Position numbers and translations under genes: made by a program
Notes under the pieces: generated by a model
The model's input: only the letters and a program-made list of their open reading frames with translations
Database searches by the model: none
What the model was told of the DNA's origin: nothing
In this document: positions 16,277 through 51,840 of the stretch, piece by piece
How positions within the stretch are numbered: the stretch's first letter is position 1
How the letters are laid out: the number at the start of each line of letters is the position of its first letter
NCBI GenBank assembly: GCA_009746045.1
Contig: RPFO01000231.1
Location: 477,388-541,387, forward strand
Direction of reading: 5' to 3'
Origin: Mesostigma viride
Lineage: Eukaryota; Streptophyta; Mesostigmatophyceae; Mesostigmatales; Mesostigmataceae
Length of the DNA: 64,000 bases

Positions 16277-16397
16277 TGGAGGCAGATGGTGCGCAAGGAT
16301 TAATTAATTAATTAATTAATAGACACGTGACTGCGTCACGTGAGCATAAGCCCTCAGTGGGAGCGGAACATGGGATGGAATGGATGGTATAAGCTAT

Positions 16398-21495: not shown

Positions 21496-21510
21496 ATCGA
21501 GCTGAAAAAA

Positions 21511-22014
21511 CAGCGATATTTGCTGGGCAGGGCGGTGCCGGTATCTTCGGAAATATTGAGCGATAGCTGGAGAAAATTATATCAGCGTGTTCGTCTTCAA
21601 AAGACGAGTCTAATGCAACCAACCCGATGAAGTTTCATGGCCGGAGTCAAAAGTTATGAGCATTCTCGTATATTGCAACAGCGATATTTGCTGGGCAGGG
21701 CGGTGCCGGTATCTTCGGAAATATTGAGCGATAGCTGTAGAAAATTATATCAGCGTGTTCGTCTTCAAAAGACGAGTCTAATGCAACCAACCCGATGAAA
21801 TTTCATGGCCGGAGTCAAAAGTTATGAGCATTCTCGTATATTGCAACAGCGATATTTGCTGGGCAGGGCGGTGCCGGTATCTTCGGAAATATTGAGCGAT
21901 AGCTGTAGAAAATTATATCAGCGTGTTCGTCTTCAAAAGACGAGTCTAATGCAACCAACCCGATGAAATTTCATGGCCGGAGTCAAAAGTTATGAGCATT
22001 CTCGTATATTGCAT
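21511..22014 (-). repeat. Three 168-bp tandem monomers at the LINE-A 5' end
   Basis: Units start at 21511, 21679 and 21847, each beginning CAGCGATATTTGCTGGG and ending near CTCGTATATTG. Only a few differences are seen between units. They lie just upstream of ORF1 in element orientation, as promoter monomers do in mouse L1. Confidence 0.85.
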
Positions 22015-24712: not shown

Positions 24713-25539
24713 CAGACAGGCCGGGCCCTGGCAGCCTTCAAAAAGGGGGCCAGGTCGATCGCCGCTTGAAGCTCCCGGCAGGCCCCCTCAGGGAGCCGCC
24801 TGCGGCGCCCAGGCAGGGAGGCGTTCATGGCTGCTAGCAGCCGATACGTCTCAGACCACACCGAGAGCATGGGGCGGTACAGCAGATGCATCCACACCCA
24901 CTTCCCAAGCACAGAACTAAGTTCGCGGTAATATGTAAACCCGTGATCCAAGATTCTATGAGTAGCAGCGATGACCGCCACCACACGCTCAGGAACAGGC
25001 ACCACGTCACCATCTCTTTGGTGGATGACACCCACCGCCTGCACACCAGTCTGTTCTGCTGTCGCCCGTACCACCTTGTCAGACTTCTGCACCAGCCCAA
25101 GAGCGGCGTAGGCAGCCTGAACACGATCTAGCTGCTGATTCACTCCATCCACCGACGCACAGTGGGTGAAATGGAGGTCATCGATCGTCACAGCATGCAT
25201 ACCTTCCAGATCCTGCCGAGATTCGAAGCACGGCGAGGGCGCCAAGGGCGCAGCAAGGTCCTTCTCCAGCCTCAGCCGGACGGTCTGCCCCGCCTCGTTA
25301 GCCTCCGCCACCAGGATCAGCGCTGACATGTCGATGCTCAAGCCACGACTAGCCTCCAACGGGGGCTTGGGGCCACAGGGGTACAGCACAGACTGGTGCA
25401 CACACTGCGCCACAGCGACGGCCAGCTTGTTTCCGATTGGCCAGCACAATATCCACGGCCACCCCTTCCGACGTGCCCCACTGTAAGGCCCACAAGATCC
25501 GACCACACCGGCATCCAGGCACAGTACTGCCGCATCCAA
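24712..25539 (-). pseudogene. DIRS-type reverse transcriptase, N-terminally truncated
   Basis: 275 codons. The active-site motif reads AVTIDDLHF, a variant of (Y)xDD. It is followed by QAAYAALGLVQKSDK (the loop and Lys typical of motif D), VQAVGVIHQRDG, and the DIRS-like connection SSVLGKWVWMHLLYRP. The first 60 residues do not match a finger domain and may lie in the wrong frame. It is separated from RNase H by a stop and frame change at 24690-24712. Confidence 0.65.
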
Positions 25540-25609
25540 CGTATGTGACCCGGGTTGAACCCGGTTTCTCTAGGATGACACATGTATCCATTTCCCTGTG
25601 GACTTATGC

Positions 25610-26401: not shown

Positions 26402-29400
26402 TTATCTGCTATTGAAATAGTCAAGCACACGCTCTTCACAAAGACCAGCGCCCACCAAGACCAAAGGTACTCCATTGCCTGGCCTTGTTGAAGCTCCGAC
26501 AAAGAACAAGCCCTGCAAGCACCAAGGCAGCCAAGCCAACCAGTTAGAATCGATTCACTACCAGACATTCCAATCAGTCCACAAGGAGTTATTCTCAACT
26601 AATGATGGATGCAACAGCGCCACATCGAGGCGTTTTCACCTTAGTACCAACCCATGATGATCCCCTCTCCAGCAGAAGTACAGAGTTGATTTGCTATATA
26701 ATTGAGCTTAGTTTTATGGTTGCATCCGTCTAATCCAGCACACCTCTGGATGGCACGTGGAGTGATAAGCTACCTGTTCGGATTACACTCTCAACATCAA
26801 TGTTTATCATAACTGACGTAAAACCGATACGCACTTGAAAAACCACACTACAAAGCCCCAGCAAGTACTGGAGATAAAAATATCGTGGTTCCCTGAACAT
26901 AGTTTCTTGATAGTGAGATGGAAGGGTAGCCGCTACAGCTAGGTTATAGGGTTCACGTGACATACCTTTTGAGGCCGCTGCGGCCTGATCCGGATCGGTA
27001 GTGACAGAAAATTTGGCCAGTTTTTTTCTGGCCAGGTGGCAGGAGCTAGGTCGTGATATAAACCTGCCACTGTTTAGGTTTCTTTGTCAATGAAGTAGTG
27101 ATTAAATCGATATAGGCTCTTTCTCTCACGCAATATGTGACCTAATATCCCCGGAAGACTTACGTAAGCCGCCGGCAATTAGAACGCCATATAGCGTCAT
27201 TTGTTCAGACGCAAAATTTGCGTGGCGAAAAAATGTCGTCCGGGCCAAGGCCGCGAGACACGCAAATAAAGACAAAAACCCACCTAGCTAAGCTTCGCCT
27301 CTTTTCTTTTCCCGCCCACCCTCCCTGCGTGTTTTGCGGTAGGGCTAGCCTTTGACAAGCAATAAGTGTTCCCATGAGCATCGGTTGCCCGGATGTGGCC
27401 TGCCTTTTGCATGTGCTCCACTCATTGTTTTTATCAATAGTCTGGTCACCCTGGAGTTCCACGGTTAATAGAATTGGAATATGTACCACCGTCCCTGAAT
27501 AGTCACCCTTGACCCCGAATGCACAATGGACAGACGGAGGACACCCAGGCTTGTCTCACTGCCGGGAGGGCAGGCCGCTGGCCACAGCATATGCCTTCTG
27601 TGCCCTAACTAGTACTAGCTAGAACTAGTACTAGTGTTGACATGCTTCCCGAGTTCGGCATCCAGCGAGTACTACCTAGTGTTGAAAGGCTTCTCAAGTT
27701 TGGCCTCACCTGGATGGATGGGTCCATCTTGTCATCCTCATAAATGGGGGAACTAGCTAGTACTAGTGTTGTAGTACTAGTACGGGCACTACTAGCACTA
27801 GTACTAGTACTAGTACTAGTGTTGTAATGCTTTATGCTTCTCAAGTTCGGTGCCCACCTGGATGGATGGGCCCACGTTGCTATCATCATAACTGTTGTTA
27901 TTACATAGCATACTGTAATAATGCTCATGACATCTAGTGATTTCCTGCACCCACCTGGATGGATGGGTCCACGTTGTTTGGCCGGAAATGCGCCAGCTGG
28001 AAGAAGCCGTGGGACAGCCCGAACGCAGCACCCTGCGCCACGTTGTACCTGCGCAAAGCAGGGAGTCAACCTCGGAGTAGGCTTCTTATCCAAAAAGTGG
28101 TGCATTCACACATACGTGCCCTGGGCCAGGTTGGACCTGCACACGATAAGCACATACACTTGATACTGTGCAACTAAATTGTTCGATGTGAGTAACGTTA
28201 TTAAGCATCACAGTGTTTTCCCAAATAACCTCACCGTTGAGAGTTTCTAAATATGTAGCGATACAGCTCATTGTTGGATGTATCATAATAATTGCAAGAC
28301 ATCATAATAATTGCAAGGCATCATAATAATTGCCGGTCTCGCCTTTGCCTGAATAGGCATGGCAATCTTCGTGGAATCCTACACTGTCACATTGCTGGCG
28401 TGTAGGCAAACACAAGCCACTAGGCTACACTATACTGGTAGGATAGACAATACTATATCGCTCCCTACCACAGATAAGGCTACACTTTACTGGTAGGATA
28501 GACAGTACTATATCGCTCCCTACCACAGATACGACATCGCTCCCTACCACCGATTCTATATCGCTCCCTAACGCCGATATGGCATCGCTCCCTACTATAT
28601 CGCTTCCTACCACCCCACAAGTGCTCTGCCAGATGGTCAGCGGGTACACAAACTGCCGGTGACCTGCCAGCATGATGCATACTTAGATATAGAACAGGAG
28701 CGCAACTATCTAGCTATAGCTCGCCCACCCACATCACCTGATCTGCCAGATCGCCGGCGAGTACACAAACACGAGCCTTTGTGTCACTGCATCTATGTTA
28801 CAACCAGATGACTATGGTATGTCAGGAGCATCGTGTCATCATAAGGATCCAGTGTACTGCAATTATCCACGTTACCTGCTCTGCCAGACGGTCGGCGAGT
28901 ATACAAACTCGTCAATGATGTGCTTCCGCAGGTCGCCCACGCCGCACTCCTCGAAACGACGCAGCACCGCCTCCCTGGCAGCCGCGACGAGCTCTGCGAG
29001 GTTTCGAGATGCACGCGGGGGACACAAATCGGAAGTGAAGGTGGACAGCAACTGAACCATTAATACCGTGAACAGGGGCTCTGCCAGAGAGACGTACCAG
29101 GGCGACAAATATAGGAAAGGTAAATGACTAAAGAGAATCATACGGGACATTGGCTATCTACTGCCAAGAGCTCTATATCGACAAATATAGGAAAGGTAAA
29201 TGATTAAAGAGAATCATACGGGACATTGGCTATCTACTGCCAAGAGCTTCATATCGAAAAATATAGGATAGGTAAATGATTAAAGAGAATCATACGGGAG
29301 ATTGGCTATCTACTGCCAAGAGCTCCGTGCAGTACGAGGCATAGACCATAGCACCCTGATATTACTTTGAGTCCTGCGAGGCACAATCTGCGCCGAAATA

Positions 29401-32400
29401 CATCGACTAGACAGGTAGTAGGTACAAAACATATACTGCTAATCAGAAACTTAGCCCATCTGTGGCCACGAGCTTTGCAAGTCTCAACTTGACGGGTAGT
29501 AGGTACAAAACATAAACTACGAATCATATAGTAGTACTACTACTCATCAGAAACTAAGACCGTTTGTGGCCACGAGCTTTCCAAGGATCAATTGATGCTC
29601 ACATCGATGCTTGAAAGGTTTTTTGCTGTAAGGTTGTCTACTGTAAGGTACAACTACACTAAACTATGGAAGCTGCGGGTGTTGTGGACTCAGGCGGACT
29701 GCACAGCAAGAGGGTGACTGCTGATTGAAGGAGACGGCAAAAGGGATGCAATGTTAGAGTGCATACTACTATAAAGTCAGTGTCGGCTGGTAAGACATCG
29801 GCAGCGGCGAGTTACGTTACCAGATTCAGGGGGCAAGGTGCCTCCCTGCTGCTTTTGCTGCTCCTGCTGCTGTTGAAGATTGGCCACCGGAAGGAGAACC
29901 GTGATCGCATCCTTGCCTGCAAAAGTATAGCCAGTCTCCCACAGACAAATAAGTATATAATTTCACACACAGATCCAGGTTCAGGTCCTGCAAAAGTACA
30001 CACGGACAGATCCAGGCTCAGGTCCTGCAAAAGTACACACGGACAGATCCAGGCTCAGGTCCTGCAAAAGTATACACGGACAGATCCAGGCTCAGGTTCT
30101 GCAAAAGTACACACAGACAGATCCAGGCTCAGGGACCCGTTCCGTGAATCCAGGGTGTTTGGAAGACATGCATGATTATGAACTGTGGATAGTTCAGGAT
30201 CCTAACATACATAAAGAGGGCTTGTCATCATGAGGGTTTGTCATAATGAGGGATGGCCATCATGAGGGTTCGCCATCTGTACTTAGACTTTCCAACAAGA
30301 GGATGACGCAAGGTTAGCTCGGATGGCATAGTTTCTCACCTAAGGGCAGGAGTCTAGAGCTCTGGGTTTAGGGATAAGGAATGAGGATTTGGAGCCGTTA
30401 CTACTGCTTCACCTCTAATCAAGTATGCAGCCTAGTATACATTTGCTATTTGTTAATTGACAGCCTGTGTGTGCAAGACCATATACAAAACACTGTGATA
30501 TACTCTGATGCGTTACCGGGTTGAACTGGTCGTAACAGGTACCTTCCATATTTACAGAGCTTTAACTACAAGTGATCTGGAATCCAGCCTTTGCCCCCTT
30601 TTTCTTGAGTGGTTGCCTTGCTCAGCTCTAGCGCATCTAGACCACAGAGCTGTCAGACCAAGGTCAGCGGTCCAAACCTTCGTCACCGGCGCTTTAACTA
30701 AGGAGCCGAGCAGGGAAAGCAGTCCTCCCTCAAACTTACTCACAGGCGCTTCAACCATAGAGCTGAGCAGAGAAGCGGCCCAAACCTAAGCTACAGGCTC
30801 TTGACCTATGGAGCTGAGCAGGGCACGCGGTCTTTTCCTTAGGCACTTCAGCTACATGCGCTTCAGTTACAGGCGCTTTCGTACCTTCTGGGGCAACGGA
30901 TGGGTCGGTCCTGGCCGGCGCGTGGACGTAAAAGTTTGGCCGCCGCGGCAGCTGCTGCGCGGTGCTCGCTCGGCGCCAGCTGGCCTCGTACTCGTCGGAG
31001 AGGAAGACGCTGTGGTGGAGCAGGCGGTCGGGCCGGGTGTCCAGGCACCTGGTTGAGCGGGGATGTAGGGTGTACAGTGCGGATAGTTAGTTGTGAAAGG
31101 ATGAGGAGGATTATAAAGGAAGCAGATGAGCTAGACATGGTAACTGGTAATGATTCTCGGGTGTCTGAGAGGAAGACGATGAAGTGGAGCAGGCGGTCGG
31201 GCCGGTGTTGAGGCACGTGGTCACACAATGGTGCTGGGTGTTGGGTTGGGTGTTTGGTGGCAGTGCAGATGTCACGCTGGTTCTTAATTTAGCTGCGGCG
31301 GTGTATCGATACGGAGCGATATGCGCATGTTTAGTTAGGCACCTGGTGCCGTATGATGGTATTGGATGATGTCGTTGGGTGGGTGAACCGTGCAGATGTC
31401 ATGTTGGTTGTTTAATGTTGATGGTAGTAGAACTCTGTAGAAGATTAACTATGTGGGTATTTAATATAAAGCTACTACTCATGATATTAAACCAAATACG
31501 AAGGAGACTATTGAATAAAAAGCTACTACTCATGATATTAAACCAAATACGAAGGAGACTATTGAATAAAAAGCCTACTACTCATGATATTAAACCAAAT
31601 ACGAAGGAGACTATTGAATAAAAAGCTACTACTCATGATATTAAACCAAATACAAAGGAGACTCCTGCATGTTGGGTCACCTGGTTGAGCGGGGGTGTTG
31701 GGTGATGTTGTTGTTGTGTGGTGTTTGATGATGTTGTTGGGTGGGTTCGCCCGTGCAGACACCATGTGGAAGGGCTAGGAGGATTGTAGTTAGTGACAGA
31801 TAGGGACGCTAGCAAGATACACATGTGTCACGGTGTCAGGCACCTGGTTAGTGTGGCGGTGTTTGGTGGGCCCACCGTGATCCGTGATGTAAAGATGGCG
31901 TGATGTAAAGATGGTTAGTTGGTGGGTTGATTAATTAGGGTGGTAACTGACACGGCTACTACAATCTATAAACCGTTCCCTCTGCCGTTCCGTATCAGGC
32001 CGCACCGGGCCCAAAAGGTTGGTCACATAAACCCTATAACCCAGCCATAGCAGCTACTCTTTCATCTCACCATACAGAACCTATGGTCGGAGAACCACCT
32101 CGTGCATGCTGAGGCACCTGGTTTGCGTGACGGTATTGGGTGCATAACACATGCCACTGGCCACATAACGCAGACACCATGTGACTGGATATAATTCTAT
32201 TTGTTTGGGATAGAATACTATAACTTGTATAAAGAGCACTATTGTTTGTGATACTACTAGTTAGAATAATATAATTTGTGATATAGCCCTATTATTTGCG
32301 GACATTAAGGCACCTGGCTTCATGACGGTCCAGGGTGCCCGCATCGGGCGCATGTCTTGTGCATTCAGTGAACACCACCACTTGAATAGAAGTACAACAC

Positions 32401-35400
32401 CTATACTATATGCCACATGTATCTGCCTCCACCTTAATGATTGCCGGCGCACACGATTGTATGTTGGGTGGACACAAGCATAGTAGGTTTAGGTTTGGGG
32501 TTGGGTCAACAATGGGGGTGGTGAGAAGGAAGGGGCCTGCAGTACTGGGACATTCATTGGGGGGCATGCGGTTGGAGCTTTACGGTGTGGCGGTTTGGCG
32601 ATGCAGCCTACAGAGAGTAGCCATGTGCTGAGCCTTAATTCTTGCCCGCCCTCTTGCTCCTGAATTAAAGGCTTGTTTCCTCAAGCCCTAGATTCCCTGC
32701 CGTGCTGATGTCAACTGCAGACGTCACGTAGCTCGAGCTTGGACAACGCTAGGCACCGCTGTGATGCTGGCCATGTGCTGTTTTCAGTAAAAAGCGGTTC
32801 TAATCGAGGAGTGGGATCAGGCAACGGCAGCAAGCTCCCAATCTCATACACCAGGCTTGGCCCCCAGCCAGCCAAGAAAAACTAAAATTTTTCTATTCAA
32901 GACTCTTGACTTTGAAGTAGCGCATTTCCTCACCAGTTGAAGGCGATGACCCCGGCGCTGTACTGCAGCCGGTGCAGCCGTTCGCCCTCGGACTTCGCGC
33001 CGGCATCGTTGATCAAGTGTTTGTAGATATAGCTGCCCGCCAAAGCGCAATGTTCATGGTATCAAGGAGAAAGAAACATATACTTTTCTATGATTTTTCT
33101 TAAGTCCAGGAGTGATAGTAGTATATTCTTAGTATTTATGTACCACTACTTAGTATTTATTACTCTAGGTAATAACCCGGAAGAAAGACAGATGTTTAGG
33201 TACTTAAAAGTAGATCCATGAAGTTTGAAAAATATCCGCAAGAATCTATGTCCACCATACAAACAACAGTCCCCCGTTGTAGAGGCCTCCATACCCACCA
33301 TTAGCGAACTACTTGAGCAAATGAACGGACAAAGTCGCAGTAACGCTTCCAGTGAAGGTATTACGAGCAGAGCGTTATGAGACATACTGGGCAGGACGCG
33401 GTGGAACTCCTGTAACAAACTATACGATAATTACAAAGCCATCTGTGTACCAGCCATCCCTAATCCTTACACGCTTGCACAAGGTCCTTCTTATATAAAT
33501 ATCACAAAATCTTAACGCATTCATATTTTTATACAACAGTATTACCAATCCACAATGCACTCCCCTAGTATCATTCTTATATAACAATCACAATTAATCC
33601 ACAATGCATTCCTCTAGTATCAATCTTATATAACAATCACAATCAATCCACAATGCACTCCCCTCGTATCATTCTTATATAACAATCACAATTAATCCAC
33701 AATGCATTCCTCTAGTATCAATCTTATATAACAATCACAATCAATCCACAATGCACTCCTCTAGTATCATTCTTATATAACAATCACAATTAATCCACAA
33801 CGCACTCCTCTAGTATCATTCTTATATAACAATCACAATCGATCCACAATGCATGCCTCTAGTATCATTCTTATGTAACAATCACAATCAATCCACAATG
33901 CACTCCTCTAGTATCATTCTTATGTAACAATCACAATGCACTCCTCTATACAATAATCCACAATGCACTCCTCTAGAATTCTTTCAAACTCACGGGAGGT
34001 CCGCATTCCCCACCACTGCCGATGCAGGGAACGCGGCTCCGTCCTTTAAACGGACGCCCGTCACCCTTCTATCGCCAGCGTCCACCTCGATGCTTGCCAC
34101 CTGGGGAGGCCAGGGAGTGGAGGTGGCGATAAACCAGCAGTTAGCGCGGGAATAAGTGAGCAATAAGTGAGCAATAGCAGTACGTTATTGTGGTGACGTT
34201 ATATTCCAGTAGCAGTAGGTAACGGTGGTAGTAGCGGTGGTGGTAAGCCAGCAGTAGGTAGTGGTGGTGGTAAGCCAGCAGTAAGGAAGAAGTAAAGAAG
34301 CGTCTAGTAAAACGTACATCGGGCGTGGAAAAGGACGTAAGAAAGGTGATGGATGCCAGGGATAGAGGGCAGGCCGCTTATCAGTTGCGTGGCACCTAGG
34401 CTATGCAGGTTGGAGGTCCCCTCAACCACTTGTTTAGTTACTGGCTATGCAGCCATGCGAGCCCTCAATCAGTTGTCCTATAGCAGTATTATGGCAAGCA
34501 GTTAGTGGTTAGCCATGTGCCACCATTGATAAACACGGATCATACCTGCAAGGCCGCTAGGTATGGTACAGCAGCGCCGAGGGACCCTTTTACCTTTGCT
34601 ACTGAAGTTCCACCTATCCCTCCCTTGAAAAAGTCTGCCACATGTTGTACAGATGGGCGACAGGGCGGTACTAGCTGGGCACGCTCGCTATATTCTGTCC
34701 AATGTTACAAAATAAAAAATGAACTCAAAAGCAGATGGTTTGGGAAGCAATCCACGGGTAGTAGTACCTGGGGATGCAGTGGGTGGCAGAAACAAGCTCA
34801 AAAAGCTTCCATGGTAAGGTACGATAGTCCTAGTATAATGGTTCAGGGCCTGTTGAAATCGGGAGCGCAGTGGGCAATCAAGGGGAGAAGAACATGGAGC
34901 TGATGTTGGGAGGCTATACCGTGGGAGGCTATATCGTTCGATTTAGCCTAACCACAATGCACTGTGTATCTTCATTCACATTTCGCTCATTTTTACAGCC
35001 TGGCAAGGAAACCACCTCTCAGGCCCTTGGACTCCAACCTTTCGCACTCACATGGCGTTTACCTTGCACTCACATGGCTCTTACCTCGTACTCACATGGC
35101 TCTTACCTCGTACTCACATGGCTCTTACCCCACACTCACATGGCTCTTACCTCTACTCACATGGCTCTTACCTCGTACTCACATGGCTCTTACCCCGCAC
35201 TCACATGGCTCTTACCTTGCACTCATGAGGCTCTTACCTCGCACTCATGGCTCCTCTATATGGTTCTTATATATGGCTCTCATATAGGCTCTCACCTCGG
35301 CGTTCAGCTGGAGCTTGACACCATTCTTCTCCGCGATCCCTCTCAACGCGTCCCGAATCTTCCACCCCACAGCGCAAGAACACACACGGATAAAAAATGG

Positions 35401-38400
35401 AAAGACGGATATCAGCATTAGCATTGTCACTTGCGGCAACTGATGGTGGCAATGTTGAAAATGTTTGCACATTACCCAGGGGAAAATGTTCGCCATCATG
35501 TTTTCTCTGCGAGTTTCTGTGTGCACTTGTGTTACCAGCCTGCACGCTTACCAATCTTCGGGGTATGTTGCCCTTGACGATGCCCCACTTGTGGGCATCC
35601 CAGTTCTAGCGAACCCACATACTTCAAGGTCCCATACATATAAAGGAATACCTAGGGTACGAACAGCTAATGTCCCAAACTAAGGCTTTGCAAGCCAACC
35701 GAACTAGTACATGAAATGATAGGATAATGAAAATATGATAGGATACAAACATTCCCCATCCAACCTAGCGGATAAGGACATGGCTAGGACACCAGCATAC
35801 CTTCCCAAAGCCACCCATCGGGTACCAGACGCCATCCACCAGCTCCGTCCCTGCCAGGAGGCTGGGGGCAACCCAGGAACCACGCATCCACGCATCCACA
35901 GACACAAAAGCGCGTTGACAAGCCCGTCCAGGTGGGGAGAGATGAAGGAGAAGCTTACATGAATGAATTAAGTAGTTGATATAACAGGTTTCATGGGTAC
36001 GCAGGCCACAGGAAAATGGTGGCGAGGAACTGGTGAGTTCAACGGCAGGGGTATTTCTCACCCATGCCGGTGACAAGGGCAGTGGGTTTGTGACACGGCA
36101 CACTAAAATGAACGGCGTCCCTACGTAAAGGAGCATGTTGGCGAGCGAGTTACTGCTGGTATCGCACTAGCGTATTGACTCTTTCAAACTAGTGAAAGGT
36201 TTGCGAGCTAGTGATGCCTCCTGTCCCCCCTGTCCAAGCCAATGCCGGGTGTATGGCTTCAATTTGGCTTCAGGCTATTAGTCTGCGCTCATCATCAAAA
36301 GGGCACGTATTAGTGTTGCAACACTATTTCTTGCATATGCGGTCGGTGGCAGGCAACTGCTGGATCCACTAAGACTTTCTCTCCACGATGGAAAACGCAC
36401 ATGTATGTATCAGGGAGCCGAGCACCTGTGTTGATAGACATCCTGAGGCCATATTAGCCCTTAACCTTCATCCCACATACCGATTACGTTGCCCTATTAT
36501 CTGCCACAGCCTACTATCCCATGACCTCCCGTATTCGCGTTAAGACCCTTCCAGATGGCCTCAATGAATAACCTTAAGCGGTGCTTGGGAGGGGTTGATT
36601 CCTCACCTGAACACCCCAGGGGCCTCGTACGGTGACAGGCCCACGTAGAGGTCCTGGAAGGAGAACAGCGCGCGCAGCCGGGGGTCCTGCGGGGACATTG
36701 AAGGGCAAACCCAAAAATGAAAGGAGAACAAACGCAACACCATCAAGGTTGCTGTAAACATGACACCCCAGTGAGCATCGATCAAGATACTGCAAATAGA
36801 TAGCAAAGGGTCCAATAGATAGCAAAGGGTCCAAACTAAACAAATGCGACTAAGTGGGTTCGCTACAAGCATTCAGAAAATGCCAGATCTAAACACGAAC
36901 CTATCATGAAATAGTCAGCCATGCATTTTTGTACTGCCTCACGCTACCATTATACGGCTTCAGGCTGGTGATTGCGTGCTTTTCTTTCATGCGCTAGTGA
37001 TGCTGGGAAGCCCATTTCCAGGCTAAAGGGAGTACTACCAATTCAAGCAGTGCTGACAGCGCAACGCATCGCAGCTGGCAATGTGGGGGCATTTGCTTGT
37101 TGAATACTAGCATTGTCACATCCAGCGCAGCACTCCACAAGAAGGCAACGGAAGTGTACCTATAAGAGAGGGAAGAACTGGTTGGGGGAGGCAGGGGAAG
37201 GGAAACATGATCTCAATGGCATGCTTGGTAAATGCTTGGTAAATAAATGCGTGGGAAACGCATGCTTGGGAAAAGCATGTTTGGGAAATGCTTCATACCA
37301 CCAGGCCATCAAGAAACGATAAAAAAGATGCCTATGATTAGAAGGCATAAAATGCACATTAAGAATCTGTATTCTTATGTTCAGACACAAAAAGCCAGGC
37401 AGGAAGCGGTCCTTATGAAAAGATAGACTTGAGGCTTTAGTTAGTAGCTCATAATGCTAGAAAGGCCTTTCCTAATTTACTACTCTTAAAATAGCCAGCC
37501 AGCGTGTTTGGAAGAGAAGACCTAACCTTACCTGGTTGCTAATTCATTATTTTCAAAGGCACTTGCTAAGGACATACCTTAAAATAGCCCGCCAGCACGC
37601 GGTTGTGTTGGCCGAGCAGCTTAAGGGGGTCCACCCGTCGCAGAAGGGGGGCGAGGTACGCCGGGTTTAGGTAGTCCATCACACTGGCAGTAGGCATGTG
37701 ATGGTTGCATGTATAGGGCAACACAACACAAGGTTGAGGGACACGGGGGCGAGGTACTCCGGGTTCAGGTCGTCCATCACCCTGTAGAGTGGTAGAGGCG
37801 GACGACAACACGCCACAAATTATATTTGCGTGTCAAAGCAATTTCTGCGTTAGGTATTCCAGCAGACTGGCACCTATTGCCTGCATAATTATATTGATTA
37901 CACGACGGAGTACACAGCATTGACACAAATATGTGGGTACGTAGTCCAGCATGCTGGCGGTAGGCGCACTAGGTGCACGGGTATGTGCACATACGCAAGT
38001 TTACAACTGAATGTGACAGTACAAAGTGAACATAATGATAGTACAGAGTTAGCGCATTACTTAATCATGAGTGCTGCTATAATACAAATTTGCAGGCGCT
38101 CATAGCCCGCTCGGAGTTATGTTACTAATTAATTAATTAATAGCCCGCTCAGCCAACTGCGTGGTGAAGGACGCGCAAGAGTCATGTTGCAAGGTTCACA
38201 GGGAGCCGAAAAAATGAATCGCGTCAGAAGTTGTCGTTTAGTATCAGCTTGTGTACTACACAGTATGTTTGTACAAACAAGCATGCATACCGTGGCAAGG
38301 AAGCCTACTACGATGCATTCACTGTAGTAGAAGTTTGTGTAGGACAGTTCTGCTACGAGCGGTGGCAGTGGCTATGGTGCCCTGAGTACTTGGCAGATGC

Positions 38401-41400
38401 GTGCTCCAACAACAAGGGTCCTCTAACAAGGGTTCTCATAAAAAACTACGACGGTACCACTGACCACAATGGCAAAGGAGAGTGCCACGTGGCCCAGGGA
38501 AAAAAACGGCCCTCCTGAGTGTGCCGTCCATGACGTACATTAGAATTTCTCAAATAGGAGAGGAGTGGAATTTCTGAATAGGTTCGGTCATGACGAGTCT
38601 ACGCTGCATCCAGCTTGATAATCAGTTTACAAAACTAGACAGTTGGGTAGATAAATTCGCAACTAACAGACGCACTTTAGCGCATGCAAGGTGAGCTCAC
38701 CTGTTGAAGTTGCGAGAAATGAACCCTGGCAAGCTGACGTCGAATGTGGCCTGTTGCAAGGGCACACGATCAGTCGAATGACGTGATGGACAAGCAGAGC
38801 CAGTCCGAGAACATTTGGATGGACAAGCCACATGTCCCATCGCTGAGTAACCGAACTAAATGTAACACATTCGTACACTCCTTGGAAAATAAAGATCAAC
38901 CCATTTACATTGAAAGTACCATATAACTAAATCCGGACCAATGAGGGGTCCTGGCAGGGTTATGACAAGCACAGCGTGTTGCGCAGGCTGTCGATTGCCG
39001 TATATGTACGGACAAGCGTACGTGTCTGTTATTCTTTAAGGCAGGCCCAAGAGCCGATTTTCAGGCTGGAGGTGGAAAGTGGAGGCTGGAAGCTGGGGGA
39101 AGTGGGGGAACCCGAAAAGGGTTGGAGGTTGGGGGACCCATGAAAGACCCGATTCTTGTACTACTACAAACGATGCAGAACGTAGAATGCAGACGGACAG
39201 ATGCACATGCAGTTGGGTGGGAACACCGCGCCTTCATTCAATAATCAATCACTGTACACGTAGAGTGTAAATATATGGCGCCTTGAGTGGGTGTCTCTCC
39301 CGCGGACTCACCCACTCTCCAAGCTAGGGGGTGGTTGGTAAACTGGAGCTGATGCAACCTAGAGAGGTTCAGAGGTCTAGCCACTGTGAACCGCATTAAC
39401 AACATGCCCTTTACCTTAACCTCTGTGGCGAGGAGGAGGTCGAGGTACCAGCCCCATAGGTTCCCCCCCTGCATTCAACACCCTGAATCCTAAATCCTTA
39501 AGCCCAAACCCTAAACCCTTAACCCTAAACAGCACTCAACTCCATCTGGTCCGACTCCTGGCGCATCCCTTTCTGCACCACCCCAGCAGTATTGTATACC
39601 CACCCTTCACAGAGAGCCACCCTGATGACATCCCCCATGGACATCCCCCATGCTCACTCTACATGATCACTCTACATGATCACTCTACATGAGCACTCTA
39701 CATGATCACTCCACATGATCACTCTACATGATCACTCCACATGATCACTCTACATGATCACTCTACATGCTCACTCTACATGCTCACTCTACATGATCAC
39801 TCTACATGATCACTCTACATGATCACTCTACATGATCACTCTACATGATCACTCTACATGATCACTCTACATGATCACTCTACATGATCACTCTACATGA
39901 TCACTCTACATGATCACTCCACATGATCACTCTACATGATCACTCTACATGATCACTCTACATGAGCACTCTACATGAGCACTCTACATGCTCACTCTAC
40001 ATGCTCACTCTACATGAGCATTCTACATGAGCATTCTACACCCTTCACACGGTTCCACCCTGATGACACACGTCTTCTATCCCCCCACCCTTCACAGAGA
40101 GCCCCGCGGATGACACACCCCGTATTCTACCCCCACCCGTCACCATACAGCCACACGGAGGACGGCACTCCCCGTGTTCTGCGCGCCCTTCACCATACAG
40201 CCACATTGATAACACAACCAGAATTCTGTGCCCCCACTTCCCCTTGGCAGTGGCAAGGAAGCCGAGGTACTGCCGACCTCCACCTGCCCCCGTCTCCCCT
40301 AGCTGCTGGCGCACAGGACGCTCGACAATACCTAGAAACCCTCACATGTGAGACCACCACCACCCGGTATATCGACCCAGACCCCCAACCCTCACCTTGG
40401 CAGCGGCGAGGAAGTCGAGGTACTGGGAGCCGGCACCCGCCTCGACCTCCTCCAGCTGCTGGCACATGCGGCCCACGTCGGCCGTGAGGTCAAGGTGGGA
40501 GGAATCGCCGAAGAAGACGCGGTAGGCGGCGGGCATCACACGCTTCAGCGCCACGTGGTCGTCGAGGTCCTCCCCTGCACGCATGACAGGTATGTCATTC
40601 TGATACTGCTATTATCTATAGTATACTGCTATTATCAATAGTATACTGCTATTATCAGTATGATACACTTTGAGGGGGCCTGGAGATCAGAGGTCGATCC
40701 GGGGGTCATGATACTGATTCTCGGCCGCAGTTGGTTTGTGAAGTGGGTAGAGAGCAGCACCAGTCGTCATGGTTTGATCGCACAACACGTCATGGAGGGA
40801 ATGGTACAACGCTTCAAAGCTTTTATTCACGGTTTAACGTGGATGCCAACACATCTGCTGCAGCTGCTCGCTTCTTCTCACTCGCGCTTGGTGTGCGCGG
40901 TTGGACCACCACATGTCATCACGATGAAGGCGAAACGCAACAAGGTAATGGAGAGCTTAGCTGCTGCATGACAATTAATTAGGGTGGTTGGATCGATGAT
41001 ATGGAAGGCAGCTTGCATCTTAAACGGAAGTTTATGTCTTCCTGGGGAAATGTCGCACCTTTCGAGGTACTCCCTCGCATAAATTTGTTTTTATCCCCAA
41101 AAAACATTCAATGCGACGCGTGGCGATAAAAATGCGCTACTGGTCAATCCTATCTAGGTCCACCCACTTCCGATGTCACGCGTTCATCGAGCTTTTAGCT
41201 AGCATTCACAAACTCCTAAATGTAAATGAATCTAACCAACGGCCAAGTGAAAGAAAGAAACTATACTGCTATTCAAACGACTTTTCCTCAAAAGACTTGA
41301 TACCCTGCACTTGGTTACACAACAGAAATGGACCCTATGTGTGTGCCCCAGCAGAGCCACATCAGTGCGCCAAATGTTCACCCGACTCACCTGACCCTAT

Positions 41401-44270
41401 TTTGACCAGCAGAGCCACATCAGTGCGCCAAACGTTCACCCGACTCACCTGACCCTATTTTGACCAGCAGAGCCACATCAGTGCGCAAAAAGTTCTTCAA
41501 ACTCACCCAGCGCTTCAAAGCCTTCGTAGTACTTCTGAGGCATCAGCAAGAGGCTGCGGTAACCAAGAGGATTACCACACCAACGAATGGGTGGATGCCA
41601 CGCAGAAGAGGGGAGAGGAGCCTGCCCGTAAGATGCGACAACCGAACAAGCATAGACCAGACAATGCGACAACCCAACACGCACAAGTACAGAATGCAGA
41701 GGGGACAGTATCTAACACATTTTGTCGTCTAAATAGTTTCTTTCAAACAAGCACAGGGACAAGCACAATAATAGAATGCATAGGGTCACTATGTAAACCG
41801 CCATTTGAGGAGGGGAGGGGGGGAGAAGGGAGGGGAGGGAGAGGCGGTGTGTGTATGTGTGTGTGCGTGTGTACGTGTGAGGGGGAAGACAGCACAGACA
41901 GCCTAGGGGACAACAAGCTTGCCAAGACAAAAAGCTGCTCGAACATTCATTATCAGTGACTACGGGGCACATTTTGATGTTTGGAGAGCCGGAGGGCGCA
42001 ACAGGAGGGTGGGGTTTTTAGAGAACCGTGCACACACAAGGAGGGCGCAACAAGAGGGTGGCGCATTGGAGAACCGTGCACACACAAGGAGGGCGCAACA
42101 GGAGGGTGGGGTTTTTGGAGAACCGTGCACACACGAGATGGGCGCGACAGGAGGGTGGCGCATTGGAGAACTGTGCACACACAAGGAGGGCGCAACAGGA
42201 GGGTGGGGTTTTTAGAGAACCGTGCACACACAAGGAGGGCGCAACAGGCTAAAGGAGGGTGGCGTCCGAGTACCTTGGCCCCCTGTCTGTTTAGTGTGTA
42301 GTGTGTAGTGTGTGCGAATAAAGGGGTGTGCACAAGGAGGGTGGGGTCCAGCGTACCTCGGCCCCGTGTCGAACCGGAAATCAGAATTAACATTGACAGA
42401 CTGCATCCGGCCCCCCAGCTGCAAATACGCGCACACGGCACATAGAAAAAGAAACACACACGTGCCATATCAGAATCTAGATCCATCCCCCCACTCCCCC
42501 CCCCCCGACCCACCCACCCACCCACCCATCCATCCCGTGATGGCACCGGACCCCCCATCATCTCCAGCAAGTGATTAATTAAATGAATTAAAATGAACGT
42601 TATGAACGGGAGGTGCCCGTGATGCAAGCAGGGATGACAATGGAGTCGTCAGGAGGATAAAATAGATATAGAATAAAGAAATAGAACAGATATGGAATAA
42701 AGAGATAGAATAGGTATGTAATAAAGAGATAGAATAGATATGGAATAAAGAAATAGAATACATATGGAATAAAGAGATAGAAAGATAGGGAATAAAGAGA
42801 TAGAATAGATATGGAATAAAGAAATAGAATAGATATGGAATAAAGAAATAGAATAGATATGGAATAAAGAGATACTACTACAACAGGATGGCGATGCAAG
42901 CGGCGGTCAGGCGTTTGTAGATGTGCAGATTAACTAGGGTTAATTACTAGGGTTAACGAGGGCTGAAAGGACATGCGGGAGCCAGAGGTATTTAGGTATA
43001 CATGGCATGCCCATGTTTGGTACTGGATGGGAGGATAGCACGAAATATCTCGAGCCGCCTGGCAGAGGTGCCCTATGAGGAAATGCTGCAGACGCTCGGA
43101 CGCATCTACTAGAGCGCCGATGATGCCAGGATATAGGCATGCTGATGATGCTCCCATATTGTTCTGCTGGTAATGCTCTGACATTAATGTGGATACAGAT
43201 TCTCTCCTACAATACTCAGGTCCGCAGTCCACTGAAATACGGCCCTTTTAACCCTAGGTCAAGTGTGCGGGGTGGATAGAGCTACTCTCCTAGCTAGAAT
43301 GTTCAGGCCAGCTGAAATACTACTTTTTCCGATGCAAACTTGACCTGGAAAAACGTTGAGAGCACGATAGGAAATTGGACCAGAACTGATACAGTTTGCC
43401 AATATTGCTGCCAACTAATGCCTCATTTGCTCGCATTACCAAAAGTTCATCTTCCTTGGTTGTTCGATCCTCTTTGCATGTCATGAGCCCAGACTATGCT
43501 CCACAGCACATTTACAACATAGCTACAAGAATTGTGGAGTCAAACGAGAAAAACACAATGGGGTAACAGAAGAAGCCCGGGCATGGTATGTAGGGTTGAG
43601 CTCACTGTGGCGATTGGGGGGAAGGTGAGGGAAGCATGTTGTGGTGGCAAAATAACAGGAAATACTGTTCAGTCCTGCGTGCAATTTTGCCAGTGCATCT
43701 GAGTACCTCATCCCACGTCACGTGCGTTTATTCCAGTCCGTTTACGATCGCACGTGGAAGACCAATGTGGGCCAGGGGAAGAGCAGTAAAGTTTGAAATG
43801 TGCTTTTGAGGTATACATCTTACCTCCGCATTTTTCTCAAGGACGGTGACGTCGAACCTGGGAGTAGAGACGGTCGCATTGGTCAAGAAGCAAAAAAAAA
43901 AATTAATGGCTTGGACATCCATCGCCACAGAGAACGACAGAGATCAACGCTGTCGCTATCGGCCATGTCAGCTCGGCGTTGGGTCCTTGGTGAGTTTGAC
44001 TTACCCTTTCCTGGCTAATCTGGTGGCTACTGCTAGGCCACCGACGCCACCGCCAACGACAACTATCTTCTCTCCGAGTCCTGCGGCTGCATGGACCACT
44101 AAGGGCCCCGTCGAGCGGCGTGGTCGGCATTTTGGAGCAATTAGCAGCCTCGCCGACTTTTCTCGAAGGGGCGACGAGAGCGCGCATGCCGAAGAAGGCT
44201 TTGGGGCAAGTAGAGGTTGGCAAGGTGCCTGGCTTCCATGGAGTACTGAAGTGCTCTCCGATGATAACAT
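26402..44270 (-). CDS. Plastid CrtI-type (phytoene-desaturase family) FAD oxidoreductase, 17 exons
   Basis: Exons 5'->3' (minus strand): 44270-44005, 43857-43824, 42418-42357, 41553-41507, 40574-40396, 38750-38701, 37683-37578, 36686-36607, 35861-35801, 35358-35296, 34100-33994, 33032-32934, 31048-30885, 29916-29821, 28993-28876, 28048-27955, 26512-26402. All donors are GT, all acceptors AG, every phase agrees, and the total is 1,737 nt (578 aa). The N-terminus (about 1-62) is Ser/Ala/Arg-rich, like a chloroplast transit peptide. Residues 68-105 are the FAD-binding Rossmann motif (IVVVGGGVGGLA, VLEKNAELGGR). Middle blocks include FRFDTGPSLLLMP, DPRLRALFSFQDLYVGLSP and GVWYPMGGFGK. The C-terminal FAD motif is GLFFVGASTRPGNGVP. 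The family desaturates or isomerises carotenoids; the substrate is unknown. Exon 10's acceptor (GGAAG) is the weakest site. Introns are 147-1,885 nt and full of repeats. Confidence 0.9.
27703..27980 (-). repeat. Copies of the exon-16 donor edge in intron 16
   Basis: The true exon-16 end (27950-27980, CACCTGGATGGATGGGTCCA on the plus strand) recurs at about 27853-27880 and 27707-27735, each with its GT donor. The copies lie in units starting TAGTGTTG and TTCTCAAGTT. (CTAG/TACTAG)n runs fill the gaps. Confidence 0.8.
28440..28620 (-). repeat. Short tandem units in intron 15
   Basis: CTATATCGCTCCCTACCAC-type units recur six or more times between 28455 and 28615, and GGTAGGATAGACA(A/G)TACTA occurs twice. 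No coding content. Confidence 0.7.
28619..28910 (-). repeat. Copies of the exon-15 donor edge in intron 15
   Basis: The exon-15 end (CTGCCAGACGGTCGGCGAGT, plus strand, 28880-28899) recurs at about 28624-28655 (CTGCCAGATGGTCAGCGGGT) and 28743-28770 (CTGCCAGATCGCCGGCGAGT). Both copies still translate to FVY-x-WQ-like peptides but lack the rest of the exon. Confidence 0.8.
29103..29325 (-). repeat. Three 76-bp tandem units in intron 14
   Basis: Units begin CGACAAATATAGGAAAGG at 29103, 29179 and 29255 (the last is CGAAAAATATAGGA) and end TGCCAAGAGCT. They are followed by a second repeated block (GTAGTAGGTACAAAACATA at about 29416 and 29497). Confidence 0.85.
29974..30134 (-). repeat. Four 37-bp units that copy the exon-14 acceptor
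   Basis: GGTCCTGCAAAAGTACACAC at 29984, 30021 and 30058 (TATACAC) and GGTTCTGCAAAAG at 30095. On the minus strand each reads TACTTTTGCAG, the same as the true acceptor TACTTTTGCAG|GCAAGG at 29927-29911. Confidence 0.85.
31043..32330 (-). repeat. Dispersed copies of the exon-13 acceptor edge in intron 12
   Basis: The true junction (plus strand CCAGGCACCTGGTTGAGCGG, 31041-31060) recurs as AGGCACCTGG(T/C) at about 31338, 31838, 32112 and 32308, and as GGTCACCTGGTTGAGCGG at about 31675. A longer degenerate copy of the exon's first 55 bases lies at 31150-31205. Confidence 0.75.
31471..31670 (-). repeat. Four ~51-bp tandem units in intron 12
   Basis: Units start GCTACTACTCATGATATTAA at 31471, 31522, 31573 (one extra C) and 31625, almost identical to one another, which indicates recent duplication. 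Confidence 0.9.
33540..33975 (-). repeat. ~49-bp tandem array in intron 11
   Basis: About nine units of AATCCACAATGCACTCCTCT + AGTATCATTCTTATATAACA, ending within 20 bp of the exon-11 donor at 33993. Units alternate between ATGCACTCC and ATGCATTCC, suggesting higher-order duplication. Confidence 0.85.
35046..35300 (-). repeat. ~22-bp array copying the exon-10 splice donor
   Basis: About nine units of ACTCACATGGCTCTTACCTC on the plus strand. On the minus strand they read GAGGTAAGAGCC, against the true donor GAG|GTGAGAGCC at 35298-35287. The array lies in intron 10 and ends 30 bp from the real donor. Confidence 0.9.
37637..37966 (-). repeat. Copies of the exon-7 acceptor edge in intron 6
   Basis: The exon-7 start (VMDYLNPAYLAP) with its acceptor recurs at 37738-37790 as ACAG|G followed by codons for VMDDLNPEYLAP, and more decayed at about 37926-37962 (AGCATGCTGGACTACGT on the minus strand). 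The first copy diverges after LAP, so it is not a full alternative exon. Confidence 0.8.
39404..39460 (-). repeat. Decayed copy of the exon-5 3' end (copy 2)
   Basis: The minus strand encodes YLDLLLATE followed by GTTAAG, matching the true exon end YLDFLAAAK|GTGAGG at 40430-40390. Confidence 0.65.
39479..39532. repeat. Degenerate plant-type telomere-like tract in intron 5
   Basis: Reads CCTAAATCC, AAACCCTAAACCC and AACCCTAAAC, close to (CCCTAAA)n. It is about 50 bp, imperfect and inside a gene, so it is an interstitial tract rather than a chromosome end. Confidence 0.6.
39655..40035 (-). repeat. 13-bp minisatellite CATGATCACTCTA in intron 5
   Basis: About 29 units of CATGATCACTCTA, with variants CATGAGCACTCTA, CATGCTCACTCTA and CATGATCACTCCA. 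Each unit holds the TGATCA palindrome. Confidence 0.95.
40236..40313 (-). repeat. Decayed copy of the exon-5 3' half (copy 1)
   Basis: The minus strand encodes RQQLGETGAGGGRQYLGFLATAK in parallel with exon 5 CQQLEEVEAGAGSQYLDFLAAAK, about 75% identical. The donor has become GGGAAG, so this copy should not be spliced like the original. Confidence 0.8.
41345..41520 (-). repeat. Three ~59-bp units spanning the exon-4 donor
   Basis: CAGAGCCACATCAGTGCGC recurs at about 41352, 41410 and 41469. The third unit runs into the exon-4 donor (ACTCACCCAG, plus strand); the first two carry CGACTCACCTGA, that is a GTGAGT donor on the minus strand. Confidence 0.8.
41990..42290 (-). repeat. ~50-bp tandem units plus an exon-3 donor copy in intron 3
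   Basis: Five units of GGAGGGTGGGGTTTTTGGAG + AACCGTGCACACACAAGGAG with variants. The last stretch (42252-42290, AGGAGGGTGGCGTCCGAGTA...) copies the true exon-3 donor region at 42337-42375. Confidence 0.8.
42648..42876 (-). repeat. ~24-bp AT-rich array in intron 2
   Basis: About nine units of GAATAAAGAGATAGAATAGA-type sequence. No splice-site content is recognised. Confidence 0.85.
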
Positions 44271-45207
44271 TGGCTAATTGGAACTCGATCAACGACGCCG
44301 ATCTCAGAGAAGGCGCAATTATTAAGAGATATTGTCCGACATATAAGCAGCTAATAAGCCCACGTGTCGTACAGCATACAGCTATCTCCCCGAGTCAAGA
44401 CAGCACGAACAACTTTGTAACCCCGAGACCAATTCCGACCAGCGCTCGGTGGTGGAGGCGGTGGACCCGTGGTAATGGTTTACAGTAATTACACGCTCGG
44501 ATCTGCCTTGATTATATAAAAAAAAAATCCATGCTTTTCTTCTACGAGCAGACGAAGCCGAGACTTGACACGTGGCGCTGCCTGCCCGCCCATGCCTACG
44601 GTTCTGTGCCCATGTGCGGCGTGGGACACAACAACAAGAACAACAACCGGTTCTTGACGGAGTCCGGTATAGTTGCCAACTGATACCGTACTGTTGTTTT
44701 TGTTGTTGTTGTGTCCCACGCCGCACATACCTACTGTGCCGTACAGTCTACGGTCCGCCGTGCGCCATACCCAGTCGTCAGTCAGACAGTCAGTCAGTCA
44801 GTCAAACAGTTGGATCCCATTATTCCCACGCCCTGTCGGACCACCGGCGCGGAAGTGACCCAACTCAACGCCGCACAATCATCGGCAGCAGAGCCATGCC
44901 CAGTACACGGAACAGTATATATTCAGCTGCCCCCTGTCACCATGGCATTTGCGCGCGCTGGTCAAAGTCGAGACTAGAGAGTAGAGGTCAGAGACCAGAG
45001 AGTGGACTGTCGACTGTCGGGAGTCTCTGGATTCTGGAAGGCAATTCCCTGCCCAGCACCAGTAATATGGATAACGAATGGCTGTGCTGAGGCACGTAAA
45101 CGCATGCTTCTGGTGAGCCAAAACCGTGTCGTCTCGGGAATAATCAAACCATCGGGCTTTCAGGATGAGCTGAACACGTAAGTGCTTGCGTTGAGTACAA
45201 ACCGAAA
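44271..45207. promoter_or_regulatory. Divergent intergenic region between the CrtI-type and CtIP-like genes
   Basis: This 937-bp spacer lies between two start codons facing away from each other, so it should hold both promoters. The inverted repeat at 44612-44728 sits in its middle. (CAGT)n at about 44780-44808 is a short microsatellite. I cannot point to defined promoter elements. Confidence 0.5.
44612..44728. repeat. Near-perfect inverted repeat, 38-bp arms
   Basis: The left arm ATGTGCGGCGTGGGACACAA... is mirrored by ...TTGTGTCCCACGCCGCACAT at the right end, with two mismatches over 38 bp. The loop itself holds a smaller inverted repeat (GGTATAGTTG/CAACTGATACC). Confidence 0.9.
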
Positions 45208-46134
45208 ATGAATTTTGTGCGTCCATTGTCGAAGGACCAACTAGAAACGGAGCCAGATTTTGAGGTGCAGACATCAGGAATGGATGTGGCGAGCACGGCC
45301 GTCGGCACGGGCAAAAAAATAATTTCTACTGTCAATTTCGTGCAGTCGCTGTTGAGCGACGTGATTGACCGTTGCAGCGGTTTAAACGTTGTTGCCGATC
45401 TAAATCTCATTAAGGAGAATTTGGACCTGGTGGTAATTGCAGCAGCAAATGTGGGCGTGGATCGGGACATTATTGCCCAGAACTCCCTGTTGGTTGCCGA
45501 GAACGATAAGTTGTTAAAAAAGAACGAGCAGTACAAAAAGCAACTGCCAACTTATCAAATGCGAAATCGAGAGCTTGTTAGAGAGTTGAAAGAGGCATTG
45601 AAAAAGGCAGACGGTCTATACATGAATTACGAGAACGCCATGGCGAATAAAGGCTATCGCGTACCTTTCATTTGCAGAGATTGCAGAGGGATTAAAGATG
45701 AGGTCCCTCCTCGAATTCAAGTTTGTTTTACTTCACCTGACGTGCCGAAAAACCGTCAAGTTTCGACGACGGCTCCTTCTCCGCGTCAAGAATCGTCTGC
45801 CATAGGCGTTCGAGAACACGGTCAACCGTCAAAACCTGACCAGCAGCAAGCTCAGAATCCAGCACACCCGGGCGGCCTCCTTCCCCCTGGGGAAAAGCAT
45901 GAAGGCATCCAGGGTTCCAGAGCACATCATTCATCAGCGACTCCTTATGCTGGCATCACCGCTCACAAGGAGACCATGGCAACAGCAAACGAGCCCACAG
46001 TCCCCCCTGGGTCCCCTGAAGCTGCGACTGGTCGTTCAGGCACAGGTGGCGACCTTGCTGTGCGAAGCAAGCATGTCGGCATGCATGCTGGGCAAGCACA
46101 GAAGACATTTAGAGTTGATTTCCTCGTGCCAAAC

Positions 46135-46209
<75 letters not shown>

Positions 46210-51191: not shown

Positions 51192-51840
51192 CGCGCCGGT
51201 GGCCCCCTGGGCTGTGTGGCTTGCACCCAGGCAGTGTTTCGATTAGTGGCGTTCAGTGCTGTAGTTCGATATGCCACATGGCCGTCGGTTTGGGTCAGAC
51301 ATAGGCAAAGTCAGGAACTCAGGGGGGGAAACCGACGTCAGATACCCAGGAGTGGAAACCGACGCCGAAACCGATGTCCAGGGTGGAACCTTGCCAGGCA
51401 GGCAGTCAGTACATATCTTACACAAGTATCGACCAATGATTCTATGGTTGGCTCCTATACTAACATGGACGCACAATATCAGGGTATGGTTCAGTTCTCA
51501 TACTGTACGGCCCAGCTCCAGAATCCAGGCCAACTGACGCGGCCGCGTCGCTGTCGTCGTCGGCGGATTCGCGTCGGGAACTCGAGGCCGCAAAACAGCG
51601 TCGCGACGCGTCGGAAAAGCTGGAGGGTGCCGGCGGGCCTAACAAGGTTATGGCGCTCAGTGCAAAGCCCATAATCAAATCCCTGGGCCCAGGTAGCGGG
51701 GCAGCTTTTGAGCTGAAGAGATTGGTGTGGAGCATGTCATGGAATCTGGAAGATCCCAACTTTGGAAGCTCAAGCCTGCCGGTGCCTTATCTGCGTTTGA
51801 GGACCCACTGAGGATGGTGGGGTGGACGTTGTTTGTTAGC
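51192..51840. other. Flank with an unplaced coding-like segment
   Basis: 51521-51812 is open on the plus strand (AAASLSSSADSRRELEAAK..., ALSAKPIIKSLGPGSGAAF) and coding-like in composition. It could be an exon or a retroelement ORF start; I recognise no family. The rest shows nothing. Confidence 0.3.

Follow-up and report, generated by a model that had tools for sequence, protein, structure and literature searches.

Eight of the 16 introns of a pigment gene of the streptophyte green alga Mesostigma viride, which encodes a CrtI-family phytoene desaturase, contain copies of their own exon–intron junctions (introns 3, 4, 5, 6, 7, 12, 15 and 16), and two more contain weak candidates. The copies are in direct orientation, they adjoin the exon which they resemble, they are decayed, and they recur in a second gene. 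They are likely to be the trace of ordinary local duplication, and they are probably mostly silent.

The gene occupies positions 26402..44270, on the minus strand, of the window (the whole stretch of 64,000 nucleotides that was analysed). The model has 17 exons and 16 GT-AG introns, the latter amounting to 16,132 bases (Table 1). The joined exons encode an uninterrupted protein of 578 amino acids, which scores 415.1 bits against TIGR02734, above the family cut-off of 238.1. A protein search with the spliced product retrieves the published Mesostigma model jgi/Mesvir1/13814 (P0001), with 100% identity over 71% of the query. Residues 101-511 of our model are the same as in P0001, residue for residue, and this stretch covers introns 3-14. 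Exons 2, 16 and 17 are missing from P0001, in which exon 1 is read in a different frame, so that its protein is devoid of the glycine-rich N-terminal motif of the homologues. The three additional exons and the frame of exon 1 are backed by aligned homologues (Marchantia P0003, Klebsormidium P0007, P0004).

Table 1. Exons of the CrtI gene and copies of its exon–intron junctions (positions in the window).
Feature	Position	Strand	Basis
Exon 1	44005..44270	-	gene model; P0001 uses another frame
Exon 2	43824..43857	-	gene model; not in P0001, homologue-backed
Exon 3	42357..42418	-	gene model and protein comparison
Exon 4	41507..41553	-	gene model and protein comparison
Exon 5	40396..40574	-	gene model and protein comparison
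Exon 6	38701..38750	-	gene model and protein comparison
Exon 7	37578..37683	-	gene model and protein comparison
Exon 8	36607..36686	-	gene model and protein comparison
Exon 9	35801..35861	-	gene model and protein comparison
Exon 10	35296..35358	-	gene model and protein comparison
Exon 11	33994..34100	-	gene model and protein comparison
Exon 12	32934..33032	-	gene model and protein comparison
Exon 13	30885..31048	-	gene model and protein comparison
Exon 14	29821..29916	-	gene model and protein comparison
Exon 15	28876..28993	-	gene model and protein comparison
Exon 16	27955..28048	-	gene model; not in P0001, homologue-backed
Exon 17, including stop codon	26402..26512	-	gene model; not in P0001, homologue-backed
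Intron 3: copy of exon-3 donor junction, 14 exon + 27 intron bp, 34/41	42248..42287	-	p 6e-8
Intron 4: 58-bp tandem array; donor copies 41419-41449 and 41361-41391 with 1 exon bp	41348..41495	-	
Intron 5: exon-5 donor-edge copy, 71 exon + 14 intron bp, 64/85	40231..40313	-	alignment
Intron 5: second donor-edge copy, more worn, 28 exon + 18 intron bp, 32/46	39403..39448	-	alignment
Intron 6: exon-7 acceptor-edge copy, 39 exon + 3 intron bp, 37/42	37743..37784	-	alignment
Intron 6: acceptor-edge copy, 17 exon + 6 intron bp, 20/23	37850..37872	-	alignment
Intron 6: acceptor-edge copy, 16 exon + 12 intron bp, 23/28	37938..37965	-	alignment
Intron 7: exon-7 donor-edge copy, 47 exon + 23 intron bp, 50/72	37461..37525	-	p 4e-5
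Intron 10: 22-bp array, donor-like (weak)	35042..35247	-	p 4e-3
Intron 12: exon-13 acceptor-edge copy, 55 exon + 25 intron bp, 62/80	31163..31241	-	alignment
Intron 12: acceptor copy, 11 exon + 24 intron bp, 29/35	31670..31704	-	alignment
Intron 12: acceptor copy, 13 exon + 24 intron bp, 30/38	31832..31868	-	alignment
Intron 12: worn acceptor copy, 47/74	32076..32146	-	alignment
Intron 13: 37-bp array, units acceptor-end-like (weak)	29969..30133	-	p 6e-3
Intron 15: exon-15 donor-edge copy, 36 exon + 11 intron bp, 38/47	28727..28773	-	alignment
Intron 15: donor-edge copy, exon part only, 46/64	28622..28682	-	alignment
Intron 15: exon-16 acceptor-edge copy, 26/34	28119..28152	-	p 4e-4
Intron 16: exon-16 donor-edge copy, 24 exon + 5 intron bp, 27/29	27853..27881	-	alignment
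Intron 16: donor-edge copy, 46 exon + 9 intron bp, 39/56	27701..27756	-	alignment

The window also contains other elements. A frame of 2025 codons (stop to stop), which is glycine-rich and has a CAG/polyQ tract, lies upstream of the CrtI gene and is divergent from it (45169-51246, plus strand); it has no Pfam match at 1e-3. On the minus strand, three long overlapping ORFs at 16398-21581, one of which has a reverse transcriptase domain (PF00078, 88.7 bits), probably form a non-LTR-like retroelement, and DNA resembling 16297-17259 occurs in a separate 200-kb stretch of the same genome. Two ORFs at 23330-25569 (minus strand), one of which weakly matches a tyrosine recombinase (PF00589, 28.9 bits), may be part of a DIRS- or Crypton-like element. 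A 691-residue transposase ORF at 56517-58592 (minus strand) matches the DDE_Tnp_1_7 profile over its full length (PF13843, 140 bits), and we take it to be of the piggyBac type.

Every CrtI exon was compared with every intron, with dinucleotide shuffles as the null; the original prediction had called for shuffled controls. In forward orientation, z exceeds 5 in 6 of the 32 adjacent pairs (I5-E5, I6-E7, I7-E7, I12-E13, I15-E15 and I16-E16) and in 0 of the 240 non-adjacent pairs, where the maximum is 4.7. For the 272 inverted pairs the maximum z is 5.1, in the non-adjacent pair I16-E11. When a 40-bp probe from each exon edge is searched in its own intron (cut-off p<1e-3), 6 of the 32 edges are found copied in direct orientation: the donors of introns 5, 7, 15 and 16, and the acceptors of introns 6 and 12. 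The control probes match in 3/480 cases for non-adjacent edges, 0/32 for the far edge of the adjacent exon and 0/32 for inverted probes. Probes which straddle the junction bring in the donor of intron 3 and the acceptor of intron 15. The 58-bp array of intron 4 begins 1 bp within the exon; it is detected by the intron-side probe (4e-8), the straddling probe reaching only 0.02. The matches in introns 10 and 13 are weak, and introns 1, 2, 8, 9, 11 and 14 have no exon-edge or straddling copy at p<1e-3.

The original prediction had named introns 3, 4, 5, 6, 10, 12, 13, 15 and 16. Introns 3, 4, 5, 6, 12, 15 and 16 do contain copies, intron 4 with a single exon base, but introns 10 and 13 are weak and the donor-edge copy of intron 7 had been overlooked. 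The copies are always on the intron side, as was stated, yet a further copy within the exon would insert residues into the protein.

The alignments show both exon and intron bases across the copied junctions; the intron bases in the copies are worn versions of those at the genomic junction. Recognisable junction copies total about 840 of the 16,132 intron bases, or about 5% of the intron DNA of the gene, a sum over 18 of the 21 alignment rows from which a third row of intron 5, intron 10 and a donor row of intron 12 were dropped as weak. Introns 4, 10 and 13 have arrays close to the junction or at it, and the copies of intron 12 are irregularly spaced.

Other genes, which the original prediction had proposed to examine, were sought in 200 kb of the same genome (L004-L023, G000 C1:7000001-7200000). 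Gene finding there was home-made and noisy, and only the two genes with retrieved published proteins were used: P0121 (16 introns), which we take to be TRAPP TRS120-like, and P0122 (13 introns), presumably a C2-domain protein of the extended-synaptotagmin type. Mapping covered the TRS120-like gene from roughly residue 362 onwards and the C2 gene as far as roughly residue 613. Two blocks that fitted poorly (scores of 169/250 and 30/175) were replaced: one intron of the first was kept, and one intron of the second came from the gene finder, its translation having been checked.

The C2 gene is positive. Copies are found for 3 of its 26 edges and for 6 of the 26 straddling probes (1/26 inverted), 119 of its 299 interior tiles are duplicated, and 0 of 288 non-adjacent edges match. 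Its intron 3 contains an acceptor-edge copy which matches 31 of 32 exon bases, and its intron 7 has four donor copies 85-93 bp apart. The TRS120-like gene is negative for both edges and straddling probes (0/32 each), with 18/271 interior tiles duplicated and 0/450 non-adjacent matches. Thus, junction copying recurs in the genome, and it is missing from the gene with introns poor in duplications.

Among the 45 introns of the three genes, one dispersed repeat is shared, by introns 12 and 16 of CrtI; the other matches are in many registers, in apparently low-complexity stretches. An element that fills many introns, as introner elements do, is not seen among them. It is extremely unlikely that the junction copies are chance matches, low complexity or members of a dispersed repeat family. 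The intron interiors are repeat-rich, and the dispersed repeat takes up 600 bp in intron 16 and 109 bp in intron 12, but the junction copies are specific to the adjacent exon and to one orientation, the non-adjacent and inverted controls contradict such a reading, and apart from the dispersed repeat the introns of the three genes match only in stretches of apparently low complexity.

The dispersed repeat of intron 16 is about 600 bp long (26882-27482) and is 88.6% identical to a copy in the 200-kb stretch; a 117-bp piece of it is also present in intron 12, where it is inverted. Intron 5 also contains a 13-bp minisatellite (39649-40040, CATGATCACTCTA) of about 30 units, the most of any CrtI array, which by eye has no relation to an exon edge. 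The 200-kb stretch contains very large tandem arrays (in-frame peptide repeats, e.g., SFVR and WMDG) and masked runs (12,500 N), and these arrays indicate that local repeat growth in this genome attains the kilobase scale. The Mesostigma genome paper gives a mean intron length of 1,142 bp and repeats as 30.1% of intron space, and the term "tandem repeat" does not occur in its main text, in the part available (PMC6947507).

Local duplication is common in the introns of CrtI. Of their interior 40-bp tiles, 91/366 are duplicated within the same intron in direct orientation and 3/366 in inverted orientation; in the rest of the window, 46/516 tiles of other non-coding DNA and 16/447 tiles of ORF or transposon DNA are duplicated. 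TRF coverage (period 7 or more) reaches 19% of the CrtI introns, compared with 5% of other non-coding DNA, 4% of ORFs and 0 of the CrtI exons, these comparisons of tiles and TRF being made on non-coding and ORF stretches of 800 bp or more. Self-alignment of the introns gives direct repeats over 26% of the bases and inverted repeats over 1%. Local direct duplication is nearly three times as frequent in the CrtI introns as in the remaining non-coding part of the window.

Exon edges behave like the remaining intron, and junctions are not preferred. In CrtI, the frequency of copied edges (6/32) is similar to that of interior tiles (91/366; P=0.52). Pooled over the three genes, copies are found for 9/90 edges, 228/936 interior tiles and 3/1218 non-adjacent edges. 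The edges exceed the non-adjacent edges (P=4e-9) and are rarer than the interior tiles (P=0.0015), although these Fisher tests, like those on junction crossings, assume independent tiles, which the tiles are not. If one random tile is drawn per intron side, 16.2 +- 3.1 copies are expected compared to the 9 observed (P=0.011 for so few), and this deficit is mostly due to the C2 gene. Inverted copies are found for 0/90 edges, and the interior tiles give 228 direct versus 9 inverted copies out of 936. The original prediction held that introns expand by duplication across junctions, with the genuine, outer junction kept. Such duplication fits the data; that junctions drive intron growth is not borne out, considering the frequency of duplicated interior tiles and the small share of intron bases which the junction copies represent.

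One may imagine that duplication is directed to junctions, pausing, R-loops or splicing intermediates making the exon edge a preferred source of copies. This is unlikely. Several observations do point that way: repeat ends lie near 19 of the 90 junctions, compared to 11.2 +- 2.9 at random points (P=0.009); the copying in introns 5, 6 and 15 seems to have gone little further than the exon edge; the flanks of the exon-edge copies are weaker than those of 64 duplicated interior tiles, where identity is 0.68-0.69; and four of the nine edge matches sit in introns with at most 5% of duplicated interior tiles, which also means that the link between edge copies and interior duplication within a gene is loose. 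However, the edges are not over-represented, the difference being in the opposite direction under both of the pooled tests above. In addition, in the 24 bp next to the nine exon-edge copies, identity is 0.46 exon-ward and 0.53 intron-ward, for a background of 0.43. The similarity ends on the exon side as well, so the copies are short patches rather than copies delimited by the junction. Several of them also hold intron bases (12 in one copy of intron 6), so their template was not an RNA that ends exactly at the junction.

In a first count, repeats cross 3/90 junctions, versus 153/712 intron points. When arrays of at least 3 units are excluded, the 3 crossings observed compare with 3.2 expected. 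Arrays with many copies rarely enter exons, and for isolated duplications, crossing a junction is about as frequent as crossing an intron point. Copying delimited by the junction, which the comparison of intron flanks and the first count had suggested, was dropped as a claim, since the crossing deficit vanishes without arrays and similarity fades on either side of the short patches. Its remaining support, the excess of repeat ends near junctions, depends on the threshold: at a stricter one, P is 0.15 with all repeats; without arrays of at least 3 units, 17 ends are found versus 9.6 expected (P=0.006), and 10 versus 6.2 at the stricter threshold (P=0.08). Extra clustering of repeat ends at junctions is therefore unproven.

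The intron flank of the junction is copied in intron 4 (p 4e-12) and less clearly in introns 3 (p 2e-3) and 7 (p 4e-3). No similarity of the flank is detectable beside the copies of introns 5, 6 and 15. In introns 12 and 16 the copies are alike (best pairs p 3e-5), and the genuine flank hardly resembles them (p 0.04 or worse). In five exon-rich copies the intron-side identity is 0.41-0.51, below the value given by a simple two-lineage decay simulation, in which the exon side has one free lineage and the intron side has two.

The position of the copies bears on the origin of the introns. Nearest copies lie at a median distance of 115 bp, and 15 of 17 are within 50-200 bp (hand-picked distances, CrtI and C2 genes). 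Copies of donor type are found 58-975 bp away from the donor (the introns are 803-1645 bp long), and those of acceptor type 88-1265 bp away from the acceptor. If these introns had been born by tandem duplication of an exon piece bearing AGGT, the copies could be scars of that birth, and they do show exon edges beside GT or AG. It is highly improbable that they are, because under that model the copied end of the upstream exon should sit at the far (3') end of the intron. The donor-type copies stop well short of the intron 3' ends, the acceptor-type copies lie at the distances just given, and the far edge of the adjacent exon is never found (0/32).

The splice dinucleotide is kept in 16 of 20 listed sites, GT in 7/10 donor copies and AG in 9/10 acceptor copies; two of these sites, in intron 12 (31342 and 32313), were found by eye outside the 21 alignments. 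This might be taken to mean that the copies are decoy or alternative splice sites under selection, which we regard as very unlikely. The 20 sites were picked by similarity centred on the junction, so their retention is biased, and preferential retention was set aside for this reason. Among the eight copies chosen by exon similarity alone, four keep the dinucleotide, which is about what neutral decay would give. The use of any intact copy is predicted to break the protein by a frameshift or a stop (16/16), as expected anyway at such intron lengths, and the flanks are near background. A higher identity on the exon side than on the intron side was also rejected as proof of selection: it is not significant over the 20 sites (P=0.33). 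Nothing in the sequence suggests that the junction copies are kept as splice sites.

The explanation that we favor, and consider likely, is that introns gain short direct duplications, spaced by about 50-200 bp, of which some straddle a junction, survive harmlessly and decay. Short direct duplications of nearby DNA would keep arising in introns, possibly when nicks or breaks that lie close together are repaired by fill-in or patching. A duplication that straddles a junction would put a second exon edge and splice site inside the intron. The outer, original site would still be spliced, leaving the protein unchanged, so that the event could survive such a filter, while use of the inner copy would break the frame. 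This would account for survivors on the intron side, although nearly any sequence inserted in an intron would have the same effect if used. The intronic copy would then decay, presumably neutrally, while selection holds the real exon edge.

Small tandem duplications fit the direct orientation, the adjacency and the median spacing of the copies. In rice, tandem duplications are the commonest insertions, they are enriched at 50-200 bp and they are ascribed to the repair of adjacent nicks, according to the available part of the study (PMC7971508). Similarly, the part available of a study of mammalian cells describes small tandem duplications which result from fill-in at 3' overhangs (PMC8355091). 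A plain tandem duplication predicts a copied intron flank, so introns 5, 6, 12, 15 and 16 fit poorly. The decay simulation, the patch-like nature of the copies, the edge matches in duplication-poor introns and the repeat ends near junctions also count against small tandem duplications as the best explanation.

The exon edge is a fixed yardstick, which stays in place while the intronic copy decays. It could thus reveal old duplications that are invisible between two freely drifting intron copies, and it offers a way to date and count one process which lengthens introns. The genome tolerates extra copies of splice sites with no change in the protein. Should the duplications of Mesostigma tend to begin or end at junctions, which seems unlikely, the exon-edge patches would give the genome a lasting reserve of almost functional splice sites, and shifted junctions, alternative splicing or new exons could arise from it. 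With a junction bias of this kind, intron growth would be tied directly to the way in which alternative splice sites originate.

Junction-like repeats are known from other genes. The minisatellite of IFI6 (6-16) consists of repeat units each with a donor-like site, but it is a single array at a single junction. The statement in the original prediction that it knew of no described case with most introns of a gene affected must be tempered. No report of junction copies in many introns of one gene was found in searches of an open-licence library, some of which had other aims, and other papers may exist; in contrast, tandem duplications at exon–intron boundaries are already in print, as the accessible parts of two papers show (PMC4974935, PMC2812944).

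The closest described event that we have seen, in the part available of the work of Ma et al. (2016), is in the RdRp gene of potato, where a direct tandem duplication likewise extends over an acceptor junction, and another, of 83 bp, lies inside the first intron (PMC4974935). The potato duplicate became a new exon and intron, whereas the Mesostigma copies sit within existing introns, occur in roughly half the introns of a single gene and show varied wear. In human genes of segmental duplications, the available text describes a similar expansion of the minisatellite type at exon–intron boundaries, with internal tandem repeats (PMC2812944). There, repeat variation alters exons and splicing between recent paralogues, unlike in Mesostigma, where neither the outer junction nor the protein has changed and the majority of copies are degenerate. 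The small tandem duplications of rice and mammalian cells, as presented in the accessible parts of those studies (PMC7971508, PMC8355091), have the same direct orientation and short spacing and are the likely mutational source; they are observed mutations, whereas in Mesostigma the source is deduced from worn copies, at splice junctions.
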